Positions 47,572-63,928 of a stretch of DNA of 64,000 nt are shown piece after piece (positions within the stretch are counted from its first letter, which is position 1; every line of letters begins with the position of its first letter). The notes below the pieces were generated by a model, which was given only the letters and a program-made list of their open reading frames with translations, made no database searches and was not told the origin of the DNA. Made by a program: the position numbers and the translations under genes. Origin of the DNA: Halosegnis rubeus (lineage in GTDB: Archaea; Halobacteriota; Halobacteria; Halobacteriales; Haloarculaceae); the NCBI RefSeq assembly GCF_009184545.1, contig NZ_QJOW01000003.1, positions 77,481 through 141,480 on the forward strand, given 5' to 3'.

Positions 47572-47718
47572 CTCACACGATACCCAAAGCCCAAGACGAC
47601 ATTGTCTTGGCATGTCCCTCTTTTTCCATCGGAATATCAGGAATACGACAATCCTATTCGAGTGGGTTGTCCAGCCGGATTCGCTCGTGTTGTCGTATCT
47701 TTACTGAGAAAGTCACCG

Positions 47719-48519
47719 TTATCGCCGCTCTTCGAGAGCGTTGAGCGCACGTCGGAACTGCTCCTCGTTGATCCGCGGTTCGGACATCGCCTGTGCTTCG
47801 AGTGCGCCTGCGTATTGTTCGAATTCGCCCTCGCTTGGGTCGGCCGCGAGCACGCAGTCGACGTACCCATCGAGCGCAGACTGTAAGTCCTTGGCGTAGT
47901 GATCGTATGCGGCGTCGATGCGGCCGTGGTTGTCGTCGATTCCCTCGAACAGCGCACGGTAGACGGTCACAGCCGCCCAGTAGCGCTCGCGCTCACGGTA
48001 CTGCTCGGCTGATTCGAAGAAGTGAGAAAAGTCAATGGCTCCCGTGACGACTGGATAGTCCTCGGTGTGCTGGTCGAACAACTCCTCGATCCTCTCGCGG
48101 TACGCTTCAACCGACTTGTGGTCGTCGCCGAACCGTGCGAGAAACTGCTCACGCAGGTCCGGGTTTTCGGCAAGTGTATCGCGCACGAACGCGCGTAGGT
48201 CGCCGGACGAGACATCTTCAATAACCCTTTCGACGTGTTCGCTCTCGTCTTGGGGCGGATTAGCGACAACGTCCAGTAGCACCGCGACGACGTGCTTGCA
48301 CTCGCCCGTTCCTTGGTAAGGACACGTACACCGCGCATCGACGGTGTTCTCGCCCAGTTCGACGGTCACGTCGTACAGACTCGATCCCCGAACCGCAGCT
48401 GTGACCACGTCGCCAAACCGTTCGATTCGCTGAATGCGTCCTTCATCCCGGTAGTTCCGCCCGCGCTCGAACACCGTGTCGGTACAGGTCTCCCGGATGT
48501 TCACGTTCTCGGGGTCCAT
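47719..48519 (-). CDS. SWIM zinc-finger protein
   Basis: 266 residues. The SWIM motif CxCx(n)CxH is at ~63-75: ARCTCPYQGTGECKHVVAVLL. The N-terminal part (FERGRNYRDEGRIQRIERFGDVVTA) precedes it as in other SWIM proteins. The C-terminal ~150 residues are helical and TPR-like (YWAAVTVYRALFEGIDDNHG). SWIM domains bind DNA or protein and occur in Swi2/Snf2 partners and recombination regulators. No such partner is adjacent. Confidence 0.85.
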   Translation of the reverse strand: MDPENVNIRETCTDTVFERGRNYRDEGRIQRIERFGDVVTAAVRGSSLYDVTVELGENTVDARCTCPYQGTGECKHVVAVLLDVVANPPQDESEHVERVIEDVSSGDLRAFVRDTLAENPDLREQFLARFGDDHKSVEAYRERIEELFDQHTEDYPVVTGAIDFSHFFESAEQYRERERYWAAVTVYRALFEGIDDNHGRIDAAYDHYAKDLQSALDGYVDCVLAADPSEGEFEQYAGALEAQAMSEPRINEEQFRRALNALEERR

Positions 48520-48562
48520 GATTGTAGAACGCTTCTTTAACCCGTTTTACCAGTCTGCAGCC

Positions 48563-49069
48563 CTATTTGTCTAGTAGTTCGGTGACGCTCTCAACGGGGG
48601 CGTAGTAGCCGCGTTCGTCCCGCCAAACCTCCAGGCATTCGTCCGCAGTTTCGCTGTCGATACGCTCGCGTTTGATGCCGAGGACGAGGAGGCCTATCGA
48701 TCCAGTGACTGGAACATCCAGTTCTGTCGAAAGACGGCGTGCTGCGAGGTCATCGGTGGCGATAGTCCCATTGTGTTCAACGGCTCCCTGCAACGCTTCT
48801 GTTTCTCCTGGATCAAGTCGCTCATGGAGGCTCACCCTTCCTATTTCGGGTGGAACGTCACTGACTGCCAGTCCGTTGTCGAACGCCTCGACGGCGCTGG
48901 TCAGATACTCGTGACCGTGTCTGAATCCCCGTTCAATCTCGTCACGGACTGCGGGTACTACAATCGGAGCTTCGAGTAGGTGAACGAGAAATTCGACCGA
49001 GGTCGTGCTGGCGAAATTACTGATGACAGTTGCGTCGAGGAAAACCGGTTGCGGGTAGCCGTCCGGCAT
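48563..49069 (-). CDS. PIN-like domain toxin (VapC type)
   Basis: 168 residues. Conserved acidic residues of the PIN nuclease fold: D12 in VFLDATVISNFA, the E/D of DPGETEALQGA (~88-98) and D of ATDDLAARRL (~104-113). PIN toxins are RNases. It follows the UPF0175 gene directly (stop and start adjacent at 49069/49070), the standard antitoxin-toxin order. Confidence 0.85.
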   Translation of the reverse strand: MPDGYPQPVFLDATVISNFASTTSVEFLVHLLEAPIVVPAVRDEIERGFRHGHEYLTSAVEAFDNGLAVSDVPPEIGRVSLHERLDPGETEALQGAVEHNGTIATDDLAARRLSTELDVPVTGSIGLLVLGIKRERIDSETADECLEVWRDERGYYAPVESVTELLDK

Positions 49070-49291
49070 CTATTCGTCGAGGTCGAGTGCAACGTCGATC
49101 TCGCGCTGTAACTGGTCGTCAGTTCGTGGCCCGTAGAGCGACGTGAAGCCAGCGTCTTCCAGCACTTCTTCGAACTCCCACCGGGACAGTCCGGCCGCTT
49201 CGGCAGCACGTCCGAGCGAGAGGTCGCCGAGAACGTACCGACCCACCGCGGTCGCAAGTTCGTCGGAGGACTCGCTACTGGAAGAGGTCAT
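49070..49291 (-). CDS. UPF0175-family antitoxin
   Basis: 73 residues. The UPF0175 signature is LATAVGRYVLGDLSLGRAAEAAGLSRWEFEEVLED (positions 12-46): a short helix-turn-helix used as a VapC-type antitoxin. The C-terminal DDQLQREIDVALDLDE likely neutralises the PIN toxin encoded next. Promoter probably lies in the A/T-rich gap to its right. Confidence 0.85.
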   Translation of the reverse strand: MTSSSSESSDELATAVGRYVLGDLSLGRAAEAAGLSRWEFEEVLEDAGFTSLYGPRTDDQLQREIDVALDLDE

Positions 49292-49604
49292 CGTACGTAG
49301 TTATCGGATCCACGGAGCTAATAATCTATCGTGGGACGGGGCACTCGTCGACTCACCGGGTTGCCATCCACATAGTAATCTAGGACAAAAATATTGATTC
49401 ATCCGCTATCTGGGGCGATCTGACGATAATTCACTTGATGTGATTGTTTATTATAGTTAAAATACTGGCTTAATTCGGGCCCTTGACTTTCACCCTTTTC
49501 GCTGATGTCCAACGCGACCAGCTACGGCCACAATCGCGCTTCACGTCGGTAAGTGACAACGCTGGGACCGACGGGTCAAAGCGTGTGCCGCCCGCAGCGA
49601 TCGT
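49292..49604. other. A/T-rich divergent promoter region
   Basis: No gene. The region from 49370 to 49475 is markedly A/T-rich for this genome, with TAAAATACTGGCTTAAT at ~49458-49474 as a possible start for the beta-CASP gene and other TATA-like patches for the toxin-antitoxin pair. The low GC could mark recent gain of the toxin-antitoxin pair. Confidence 0.45.
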
Positions 49605-59639: not shown

Positions 59640-59800
59640 GTGGACATCTCTCGCCGCACCACACTCGCTGCACTCACCGCTGGAGTCACAACCGGAATCG
59701 CCGGCTGTAACTCGCTCACCTTCGGCGGCAAACAGGAGTACACGCCCGTCGTGCTGGAGAACAACCACGACACGCCACATATGATGGCGTTCAACATTCA
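59640..59800 (+). pseudogene. Truncated lipoprotein gene at edge of accessory region
   Basis: A GTG-started frame gives MDISRRTTLAALTAGVTTGIAGC: a twin-arginine motif and a lipobox IAGC at about 20-23. About 30 residues after the lipobox, ordinary sequence (EYTPVVLENNHDTPH) gives way at ~59795-59805 to an unrelated, lower-GC tail that runs to a stop at 59900. I read this as a break point that removed the rest of the gene. Confidence 0.6.
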
Positions 59801-59986
59801 GAAACTACTAGTAGGCGCTATTGTATCGAAGACCGGTAGACTGCGTCTGATCGGTCGTTGTAGCCTTCCGATTTCTTATAGGAAATATGAGGTCTGCTGA
59901 ATAGAACGCGCGTATGTAGCACTCATCTTGTGATTGAGTCCACCCGTCTGTAATAAGGTCTCGATGGCCCCCCACGCCTTCGACGC

Positions 59987-60796
59987 CTAGATCGGAGAGT
60001 TCAGCGTGCCGAAGTACACCTGCCATGCGAGGACGGACTTGGCCACGAGACTCAACAAAACGTACGTTTTCTCCCCGAAGAGGTAGTCCTTCCACCAGGA
60101 CACTTCCAGATACTGCAACGCCATGTTCACCGCAAAGAGGTTGAAGAAGACAAAGATCGAAATATAAATGTAGATGACAAACTCTGGGAACTCTCCGCCG
60201 CTGGCTGTTACTGTGCCGATGAACGTGATTGCGATGACGATCCAGGGTACGATACCGGCGATGACACCAACCCAGTACGGCGTCCAGTCGGTTTCCTCGG
60301 TCGATTCGTTGCGTTGTTCCATCAGCAGTCCGGCGAGGTTCATTACTGCAACGAGTCCAAACAGCGCCACGAGCGTCCCGAGGTCCCAGATGCCGGCTAG
60401 CATAGCGATGACGACGATCATCAGCGAGGCGCTCACGGAGTATTCGTACCAGCGGTAGGGATTCATCCCCCTGTCGAGATACTCGACGTACCGTTCGTAC
60501 AACACGGTCGCAATAGCGGCGTGCGCGAACGCGGAGATGAAGAGAAAGCCCGCCACGAGCAGGGGAAGGTTTGCATCGACAAATGAGACGGTCTCCGGGA
60601 AGATTGCCTCTGTTTCGGCGTTGAAACCGTATCTCGTACGTGTGATCGGCCACAGAACTTGGTCGGCCAGGATGACCATCGCCAGCCCTTGTAGAAAGTG
60701 TAGGACAGCCATGACGGCGTTCCATAGTCGGAGTCGGGTGCCCCGCGCAGACGTCACCTGATTAGAATCGGTCGCTGTCGTACTTGACGTAGACAT
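59987..60796 (-). CDS. Heliorhodopsin
   Basis: 269 residues, seven hydrophobic helices. Heliorhodopsins are retinal proteins inverted in the membrane relative to type 1 rhodopsins and do not pump ions in the studied cases. Diagnostic residues: Schiff-base lysine K253 in LLSLVAKSVLAWQVYFG (helix 7), counterion E118 in YRWYEYSVSASLM (helix 3), H33 in VLHFLQG (helix 1) and H92 in SAFAHAAIA. The E118-K253 spacing (135) equals that of the reference 48C12 protein (E107, K241) within one residue. No carotene oxygenase or other light gene is nearby. Confidence 0.93.
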   Translation of the reverse strand: MSTSSTTATDSNQVTSARGTRLRLWNAVMAVLHFLQGLAMVILADQVLWPITRTRYGFNAETEAIFPETVSFVDANLPLLVAGFLFISAFAHAAIATVLYERYVEYLDRGMNPYRWYEYSVSASLMIVVIAMLAGIWDLGTLVALFGLVAVMNLAGLLMEQRNESTEETDWTPYWVGVIAGIVPWIVIAITFIGTVTASGGEFPEFVIYIYISIFVFFNLFAVNMALQYLEVSWWKDYLFGEKTYVLLSLVAKSVLAWQVYFGTLNSPI

Positions 60797-60802
60797 TATA
60801 TC

Positions 60803-61537
60803 ATGTTAAACACACACGGTAGTTACCTTTTCGGGTACTACCAGAAGGCGTTCGATGTCGCCAAAGCGGTGATGTCGTCGTCGCTCGGCCAACAGCTCCG
60901 AGATGGTCCGCGAGAACTGGTCGTAGACTACGTCCTGAATATGGAGTCGCTGTTCGAGCAGTACTCACAGGTCGTCATTGAGCGCGAGCTCTCGTATATC
61001 AAGTCCTACGACCATCTCGGCAACCTCGATGAGGTAACTCCCGTTCGGTCACCGTCCGTAAATCCGTTTGAGGGTGAGGGGCAGATCTACCACGAACCAG
61101 ACCACGCGCTACAGGAGGGCGACGAGACCCTTGCTGTGCTAGACTCGAAGCACTATGCGGAAGGACACGACCCGGTCAAGGAGTCATCGTCTCGGTCACG
61201 GCTTTTTAGCTACGCCTATCTTCTTCACGCTGACCGGCTCGCATTCCTGTGTCCGCTGTTGGAACCGCGTCGTCGTCGCATCACCCAGACGGGCGCGGAA
61301 CTACAGATTGTATCCCCGGAGCCAGACTTCACGCTGTATGAATACGACAAGGTGGTACACGACTATCTCTACGATGTTCTCGGCCAGAAGTCTCCGGAAC
61401 TCGAAGCGTTCCGTGCAGTGGCAGAGAACCGGCTTTGTCTCGATGGTGTCGAAGAAACAAATCTGTCTGAAGCGCAGTCGATGAGTGGTCCGTTCACGTT
61501 CAAGGATGTCCAGAACTTCTCGGTAGTGTTCACATAA
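60803..61537 (+). pseudogene. McrC-like PD-(D/E)xK nuclease gene, 3' end cut by IS6
   Basis: 244 codons. The core fits the C-terminal nuclease of McrC (McrBC restriction): YYQKAFDVAKAVM, NMESLFEQY (~47-55), EPDHAL with D100, and LAVLDSKHY with D114 and K116. The N-terminal part of McrC is missing and no mcrB is present. The last three codons and the stop lie inside the IS6 inverted repeat (GTGTTCACATAAG at 61526), so the gene is truncated. ATG is only 6 bp from the divergent heliorhodopsin start. Confidence 0.6.
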
Positions 61538-62214
61538 GCTGATTCCATGCGAAGCTGAACGATCTGATCCAGTCGTCAGTGGTTTCTGCTTTGGCGCTGC
61601 TGAAACAGGTTGAGAAACAGAGGGTTCGACGTTTTATCTCTCTGAAGACACGTTCGACAGCATTCCGATTTCCGTGTTTCTCGTATCTGAAATCGAAGCC
61701 GTGGCGCTGACACGCGTCTTGTAACGAGTGAGATCCATCGACGAGAAACACGGCGTCGGAGACGTCGTGTTTCTCGGAGAGTTCCGTCAGAAACGAATGA
61801 GCGAGAACCTTCGTTGTGGTCGGTTCAAGCTTTGTATGGAGCAATTTGTTTATTTCAGGATCGACAGCGTCGTACAGCCAATACTGCTCGTCATTGAGTT
61901 GGATCACCGCTCGTCAACCGCAATGTGATTCGGACATCGGCCAGATTCGGGCTGTAGATCGGCCTTGTGAACCCAATTATGAACGGTAGATCGAGCACGA
62001 TTGACACCGAATATCTCAAGAATAGACACAGTATTCGAAAGCGACAATCCAGCAAGATGCAGCTGAATACTAAGCTTCATCAATAATCGCGGTGTCGCTT
62101 CTCGTTCAACAAACGCTAAGTCAATCTCATCCAAACAACCGCTGAGGCTAGCGTTTTCGGGCATGGATCACTCAGAAAACGCTACGCCTCACCTTTCAAT
62201 CCTTATCTGAACAC
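61526..62214 (-). mobile_element. IS6-family insertion sequence, inactive
   Basis: 689 bp, bounded by inverted repeats GTGTTCACATAAG (61526-61538) and CTTATCTGAACAC (62202-62214), 12 of 13 matching. It holds one frameshifted transposase gene on the minus strand. The 8 bases outside each end (61518-61525 and 62215-62222) differ, so there is no target duplication. Each end cuts a different truncated gene. Confidence 0.85.
61530..62164 (-). pseudogene. IS6-family transposase, frameshifted
   Basis: Two pieces: 61904-62164 (86 residues, HTH part ending HIAVDER) and 61530-61907 (125 residues, starting at the next frame VIQLNDEQYW). Intact relatives read through this point as one protein. A single-base loss near GAGCGGTGATC at ~61905 explains it. 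The DDE core is otherwise preserved: D in AVDE, D in FLVDG and E in NAVERVFREIKRR. Confidence 0.88.
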
Positions 62215-62298
62215 CGCCGGAATCTGGTGCTCGAAGGTCTCATACGCGTCTTCAATAACGAGGTTGTAGCGTCCGGGTATCTGTCCGGGGCCTGCCAT
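62203..62298 (-). pseudogene. 5' fragment of a gene truncated by IS6
   Basis: On the minus strand an ATG at 62298 opens MAGPGQIPGRYNLVIEDAYE..., 28 native codons, then VFR and a stop that come from the IS inverted repeat (GTGTTCAGATAA). It is the start of a gene whose remainder is lost or moved. I do not recognise the product. Confidence 0.55.
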
Positions 62299-62366
62299 TA
62301 TGCACACAACGATACTGAGGGTCAAAAAGGGGTGCGTTAGCCTTGCCGGATTTTCTCACGAGAGGG

Positions 62367-62810
62367 CTACGTTTCCCAAAAGGCACGCTGTCGTTCTTCA
62401 ACCTCAGAAAGAACCATGGAGAGAACATCCCGCCAGTCCTCCGGGTGTGATGCGTCGTCACCAGGAGTTAGTGCGTCCGGTCCCGGGTGGACATGGTCAC
62501 GAGTATTGTGTCCGGATGGATGCCGATCCCATCGATAATCGAAGTCTCCGGTCTCGTGTTCCTCGTGGTAATGGAGCGAGAAATCCCCGTTTTCGAACCA
62601 GACCACCTCCAAACGAGCGGAGCGGACTCGGTTTGGGTAGAACCGTTGGTCATACACGCACACCAAACGTTCGGGAGCGAACGCTGGCTGCTCATCTATT
62701 CGAATAAAACGGTCGTCGGTTGCGAATCGCTCTTGGATGACATCAAGGTGGTCAAAATCAATCGGTGCACCGGAAAGCGAACGGGCCTCGTCGTCTGACC
62801 CGCCCGTCAT
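62367..62810 (-). CDS. TumE-like toxin (DUF6516 type)
   Basis: 147 residues. Features: LVCVYDQRFYPNRVRSARLEVVWF (~49-72), FSLHYHEEHETGDFDYRWDRHP (~77-98; key Tyr/His-rich strand) and DHVHPGPD (~105-112), then SHPEDWRDVLSMVLSEVEER. This matches haloarchaeal TumE-type small proteins paired with HTH partners. The start overlaps the stop of the upstream HTH gene (ATGA at 62807-62810). Toxin activity is inferred. Confidence 0.6.
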   Translation of the reverse strand: MTGGSDDEARSLSGAPIDFDHLDVIQERFATDDRFIRIDEQPAFAPERLVCVYDQRFYPNRVRSARLEVVWFENGDFSLHYHEEHETGDFDYRWDRHPSGHNTRDHVHPGPDALTPGDDASHPEDWRDVLSMVLSEVEERQRAFWET

Positions 62811-63382
62811 ACGGCGGACTGTAGATCCGCAGCGTCACCGGACTCGGTAGTGAGAGCGCGTTCGAGAAGCGTCACCCGATGACGAGCCGTTTTCCAGGCC
62901 GTGAGATGCTCCCAGACATCTTCAATGGATTGGCCGGTCTCTGCCGCATAGCGTGAAATCGAGATGTCGTCGGGAGACGCACCGTCGAATTCATTCTCAA
63001 GAGACTCCAGACGCTTCGATTCCGTCTTCAGAAAGTCCAAGAGCTCCTCGGTAGCATACTCCTGTCGAAGCGTTTGGACGCGCCGCCAGTTCAGGTACTC
63101 CTGGTTACGTTCGTAGGTGGCTGGTGAGTCCGTGACTTGGGTCACGATACCCATCCGTTCGAACCAGTCCAAGTACTCACGTGCAGCATCCACACCGTGG
63201 CCCGCTAAATCGGCCACTTCGCTTGCCGTCGCCGGACTATCGATTCCAAGGACCGCATCGAAGAAGTCGTCCCGGGTTCGCTCACCACGGACTAGTTCCT
63301 CCGGAGGAGTCAACGCATCGAAGTCTGGTGCCTCAGAACGCTCGTCGGTATCTGCTTTCAGTTCAGAGCCCGGTTCTTCCAT
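62807..63382 (-). CDS. HTH regulator/antitoxin (DUF7342-like)
   Basis: 191 residues. A winged-helix domain at ~40-110: AVLGIDSPATASEVADLAGHGVDAAREYLDWFERMGIVTQ. The central and C-terminal helices (LLDFLKTESKRLESLENEF, WEHLTAWKTARHRVTLLERAL) are coiled-coil-like. It overlaps the TumE-like gene by 4 nt and precedes it, so antitoxin and autorepressor. A TATA-like GATTTATTCC about 24-33 nt upstream implies a leaderless transcript. Confidence 0.65.
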   Translation of the reverse strand: MEEPGSELKADTDERSEAPDFDALTPPEELVRGERTRDDFFDAVLGIDSPATASEVADLAGHGVDAAREYLDWFERMGIVTQVTDSPATYERNQEYLNWRRVQTLRQEYATEELLDFLKTESKRLESLENEFDGASPDDISISRYAAETGQSIEDVWEHLTAWKTARHRVTLLERALTTESGDAADLQSAV

Positions 63383-63503
63383 ACTAGCCGTCTCGGGCTG
63401 AACGGGAATAAATCTTCTCTAGGCGTAATAATCCGTCCACCTCCGAAAGGCATCGTCAGCTAACTTGGTCTACGAATGTATAAAGAAGGTCAGTTACCGT
63501 ATT

Positions 63504-63782
63504 TCAAATAGGAATCTCAGTTGCAAGCGATTCGTCAGTTGGAGACCAAGTGTGTTTATTCCGCTCAGCGAGGCCGACGTTCTTGAGACGGCTTAGAATC
63601 GAACCCACCTTGTTTCGCTCTTGTTCGTTTGAATTCGGATTTTTGAATGGTGAATCAGGTAATTCGCTCACATCTCCGTGAATGACACGACGCACAGCGC
63701 CACCGGTATTTTGACGGAGGGCTCTCAGAACGAACTGTTCCTCCTCTGTCAGCGCCGTACGCCCGGGAATTCGAGGGTTCAA
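63504..63782 (-). CDS. Small winged-helix-like protein, TTG start
   Basis: 92 residues, opened by TTG (LNPRIPGRTALTEEEQ) right after an in-frame stop, so no longer start exists. Segments TEEEQFVLRALRQNTGGAV and NKVGSILSRLKNVGLAERNKHTWSPTDE look like a wHTH with wing. It may be a real small regulator or the remnant of one. No partner gene. Confidence 0.45.
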   Translation of the reverse strand: MNPRIPGRTALTEEEQFVLRALRQNTGGAVRRVIHGDVSELPDSPFKNPNSNEQERNKVGSILSRLKNVGLAERNKHTWSPTDESLATEIPI

Positions 63783-63928
63783 ATCGATTCAGTATGAACG
63801 GGTCTGATGATGTACCGCACATTGTCGTCACTGAAGCCGGCGATATCGCGGTCGAAACGCGGATGACGGAGTGACGTACAAGCACCTAGAGAAGTCGCTC
63901 TTTACTCTAGATATCTAACAGAGGCTGA

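Follow-up and report, generated by a model that had tools for sequence, protein, structure and literature searches.

How did a heliorhodopsin (HeR) gene come to lie inside a broken lipoprotein gene, and what could it do for its present host? We analyzed a 64,000-nucleotide stretch of DNA (the window) that carries the gene at 59987–60796 on the minus strand; the plus strand contains six stops over this interval, and the open frame is that of the minus strand. A preliminary description had identified the product as a heliorhodopsin and had proposed that the host either acquired the gene recently or is losing its context. The reading that we favor, with a probability of roughly 0.8, is that the gene crossed haloarchaeal families and now sits as a single-gene cassette within a 4-kb foreign patch that disrupts the lipoprotein gene.

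The 269-amino-acid product matches the heliorhodopsin family over its full length in a Pfam scan (PF18761, E 9e-96, 320 bits against a cut-off of 26.7), and it matches the HeR equivalog model NF038020 (E 1e-105, 353 bits against a cut-off of 100). Identity as a type-1 microbial rhodopsin (PF01036) was rejected, as PF18761 was the only family returned by the scan. A solved structure, PDB 6is6, also gives a full-length match (E 2e-78). Hydropathy analysis makes most transmembrane segments visible, not all of them separated, and solved heliorhodopsins align over the full length. In an alignment with 48C12, E118 pairs with E107, the single glutamate counterion of helix 3, and K253 pairs with K241, the Schiff-base lysine of helix 7, within an SxxxK motif (S249-L-V-A-K253). 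H33 aligns with H23 of 48C12 and H92 is the second conserved histidine (H23 and H80 in 48C12). All four residues are invariant in an alignment of 32 archaeal HeR sequences; E118 and K253 are found in 53 of 53 haloarchaeal copies, and both histidines in every copy except one truncated row. These results uphold the family assignment and the key residues given in the preliminary description, including the placement of K253 as the helix-7 lysine. The dN/dS ratios (0.05–0.13 against intact relatives of the same haloarchaeal clade, clade A, and 0.15 against Halorubrum kocurii) show constraint within the clade at the level of sequence, and they span both branches rather than the period after arrival specifically. 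Judged by its sequence, the window HeR is a genuine, intact and ordinary member of a known family.

The arrival site was defined by comparing flanks and end sequences with contig C1 of a sister genome of the same genus that lacks HeR (G001). The flanks share 92.5–93.3% DNA identity with the window, and the insert is absent from G001. In the window, 4,016 bp (59798–63813, no strand assigned) stand in place of 201 bp at the G001 site, where those 201 bp are the central part of an uninterrupted lipoprotein gene of 139 amino acids. The remnants of this gene flank the insert on the plus strand, the 5′ part at 59640–59797 and the 3′ part at 63814–63875. Given that the gene is intact in G001, the window carries an insertion and G001 represents the older state. 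A second copy of the left end of the insert was not found elsewhere in the genome. Another stretch of about 2 kb in the window (47572–49551) also has no match in the G001 region.

The insert is a mosaic in which an HeR cassette is joined to decayed defence-island DNA. The cassette measures about 0.87 kb (about 59971–60840) and consists of the gene plus a promoter region of about 40 bp. It is followed by an internal McrC-like fragment of about 230 amino acids with both ends missing (60834–61522, plus strand), 89% identical to residues 296–525 of a 604-amino-acid stop-to-stop frame in genome G402; this longer frame matches PF10117 (E 5e-10). An IS6-family, ISH29-like element (61516–62219, minus strand; NF033587) comes next, with its transposase split over two ORFs; at the DNA level it is 83–90% identical to IS6 copies from haloarchaeal plasmids. 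The broken lipoprotein gene, the McrC-like fragment and the IS6 copy that the preliminary description had placed beside the HeR gene are thus all present. Further on, the minus strand encodes a 147-amino-acid protein (62367–62810) and a DUF7342 protein (62807–63382; PF24033, E 6e-32), whose genes overlap by 4 bp and recur as a conserved pair on plasmids of haloarchaea, for example DL31 phalar01; a toxin-antitoxin role for the pair is only a guess. The last component is a 92-amino-acid remnant (63504–63782, minus strand) derived from the C-terminus of a GmrSD-like restriction protein, 85% identical to residues 632–711 of a 713-amino-acid GmrSD protein in genome G202. In genome G072, about 0.55 kb separates the McrC region from the DUF7342 two-gene unit and the IS6 copy is absent; the parents of the McrC and GmrSD pieces lie close together in G402 and G202. 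We therefore interpret the right-hand portion of the insert as an eroded defence island to which the HeR cassette was joined.

The HeR gene is preceded by about 40 bp (60797–60840, minus strand) that are shared with H. kocurii and would represent a retained core promoter region. The breakpoint lies near 60834–60840, and McrC homology begins at 60834. Clade-A haloarchaeal HeR genes (e.g. L010, L012 and L013) share an element resembling CACAGACGTAT or CATAGACGTAT that lies about 35 bp ahead of the start codon and is probably the core promoter.

The nearest relative of the window HeR belongs to another family: the H. kocurii protein (NZ_AOJH01000011) is 94% identical and pairs with it in the tree with support of 98/97. 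The two loci share the short upstream stretch described above and differ in their neighbors. At codon 124 of the H. kocurii gene (L005:397–1206), an in-frame TAG stands where the window copy encodes Ser; this stop could reflect a pseudogene or a sequencing error. The dS between the two HeR genes is 0.21, close to the value of 0.23 for a flanking core aminotransferase gene against the sister species. The GC content of the HeR gene is 55.6% versus 63.3% for the window, and its GC3 is 0.73 versus 0.90 for a flanking gene. Together, the empty site in G001, the tree, dS and the low GC and GC3 support the recent acquisition that the preliminary description had suggested. Its other suggestion, that the gene is losing its context, was not supported: this lineage shows no trace of an earlier HeR neighborhood at the site, and the surroundings of HeR genes are not conserved among haloarchaea. 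Transfer across haloarchaeal families, in one direction or the other and with H. kocurii or a third lineage as candidate donor, is supported by these sequence comparisons. No HeR match was found in phage records or on haloarchaeal plasmids as a possible carrier; such plasmids do contain other components of the insert.

A functional HeR would require a supply of retinal, which the preliminary description had implied to be lacking because no retinal gene lay near. This observation is correct locally but not for the contig: the genome's one Brp/Blh gene lies 132 kb from the HeR gene on the same contig, clustered with a bacteriorhodopsin-like gene and a gene for a lycopene cyclase domain (CrtY). 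The host can thus be predicted to make retinal and, since it encodes Brp/Blh, retinal should be available to HeR. A genome-wide search with PF01036 returned two proteins only, one bacteriorhodopsin-like and the other halorhodopsin-like and encoded on another contig. Both look like pumps, and no canonical sensory rhodopsin was found in the host genome. HeR is therefore the only candidate sensor of the rhodopsin class found in this genome.

We also surveyed HeR across haloarchaea. It was clearly present in 40 of 392 Halobacteriales genomes, in agreement with the patchy distribution previously noted. Blh was found in 27 of the 40 HeR genomes versus 201 of the 352 others (p 0.24), indicating no link, and type-1 rhodopsins in 34 of 40 versus 239 of 352 (p 0.03, with kinship ignored). 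A PF15461 match is missing from 13 of the 40 HeR genomes: six that have no PF01036 match either (G032, G035, G040, G043, G139 and G315), and G008, G031, G092, G174, G190, G320 and G382. In these organisms, retinal may be imported or come by other routes. The HeR gene of G064 (L150:4959–6829) is interrupted by a 330-amino-acid transposase ORF, another HeR loss in haloarchaea.

Clustering of ORFs around 49 haloarchaeal HeR loci revealed no conserved neighbor. The commonest family within five genes of HeR, a common ABC ATPase, occurred at nine of the 49 loci; a conserved operon partner was rejected, as no family exceeded this count. Genes for MATE efflux transporters lie within two genes of HeR at five of the 49 loci (L012, L015, L022, L023 and L139), four of them independent, with differing orientation. 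Of seven MATE genes, six were no more than two genes away from HeR (binomial p 0.0014, in a test selected post hoc), and a MATE transporter as the host partner of HeR is a weak lead.

What might the protein do? Published work on HeRs describes, for the most part, a slow photocycle without transport; in some cases the protein acts as a light-dependent regulator of partners (PMC9448325, PMC9529153, PMC11109279), including glutamine synthetase (PMC9529153) and an ABC transporter (PMC11109279). The viral V2HeR3 transports ions (PMC9448325); at the positions of its gate residues E191 and W195, the window HeR has I214 and F218, the type of residues found in TaHeR. Given these residues and the mostly non-transporting behavior of studied HeRs, the best reading, which we hold with moderate confidence, is a non-pumping, slow green-light sensor. 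The host's Brp/Blh would make the retinal, which HeR would bind at K253 with E118 as counterion. HeR would then absorb green light and run a slow photocycle without pumping ions, and its cytoplasmic loops would relay a signal to some host protein encoded elsewhere rather than by an adjacent gene. The insert contains no recognizable partner gene, which counts against a sensory role. In the cytoplasmic F-G loop, the window HeR has W234 at a position that is R or K in 47 of the 52 remaining haloarchaeal sequences. Alignment of published numbering suggests that W234 corresponds to AbHeR K220 and OcHeR R233, mutation of which altered partner binding, and W234 could weaken such binding here.

These considerations bear on a second explanation, in which HeR is an intact passenger that has no selected role in the host and is heading for loss like the H. 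kocurii and G064 copies. We regard this as possible, though not likely. The rest of the insert is decayed, the H. kocurii stop suggests that copies of the gene can be dispensable, and a transposase ORF splits the G064 gene; the unusual W234 and the lack of a conserved partner also fit a passenger. Against it, the window copy retains a full open frame and all functional residues, and its dN/dS ratios are low, although ratios that cover both branches are no proof of selection after arrival. A light-gated or light-driven ion transporter, as in the viral HeR, is very improbable: V2HeR3 demonstrates that transport exists within the family, but its gate residues are replaced here by the pattern of non-transporting TaHeR. 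Equally hard to credit is vertical inheritance of an HeR that the genus ancestor carried at this site and the sister genome lost, for although just a single close HeR-free sister was compared in detail and another member of the genus (G002) has an HeR, the latter is only 64% identical and sits in another haloarchaeal clade, the intact G001 lipoprotein gene makes the uninterrupted state ancestral, and the window HeR is low in GC and GC3.

Returning to HeR as a non-pumping sensor, a broader and rather doubtful proposal is that haloarchaeal HeR is a portable, single-gene light-response module, moving between families with a core promoter only and no fixed partner gene, and acting through a widespread host protein. 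The locus offers a natural experiment in which a single HeR gene has recently entered a host with retinal genes, two pumps and no recognized sensory rhodopsin, and an HeR-free sister serves for comparison. If both organisms can be cultured, the effect of HeR by itself on a haloarchaeal cell could be examined directly.

Among known proteins, TaHeR (Thermoplasmatales archaeon SG8-52-1, PDB 6is6) resembles the window HeR in its counterion, lysine, histidines and the residue type at the V2HeR3 gate positions; the window protein differs in its longer N-terminus and its haloarchaeal origin. The HeR of Halorhabdus tiamatea, also haloarchaeal, has been purified and absorbs green light at 536 nm (PMC7807009). 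It would belong to a different haloarchaeal clade, as judged from the placement of the Halorhabdus genomes in our tree. With a haloarchaeal HeR purified before, the present protein is known in kind; the useful part of this locus is its clean arrival site, which shows that this HeR gene moves by itself, accompanied by no more than its short putative promoter.
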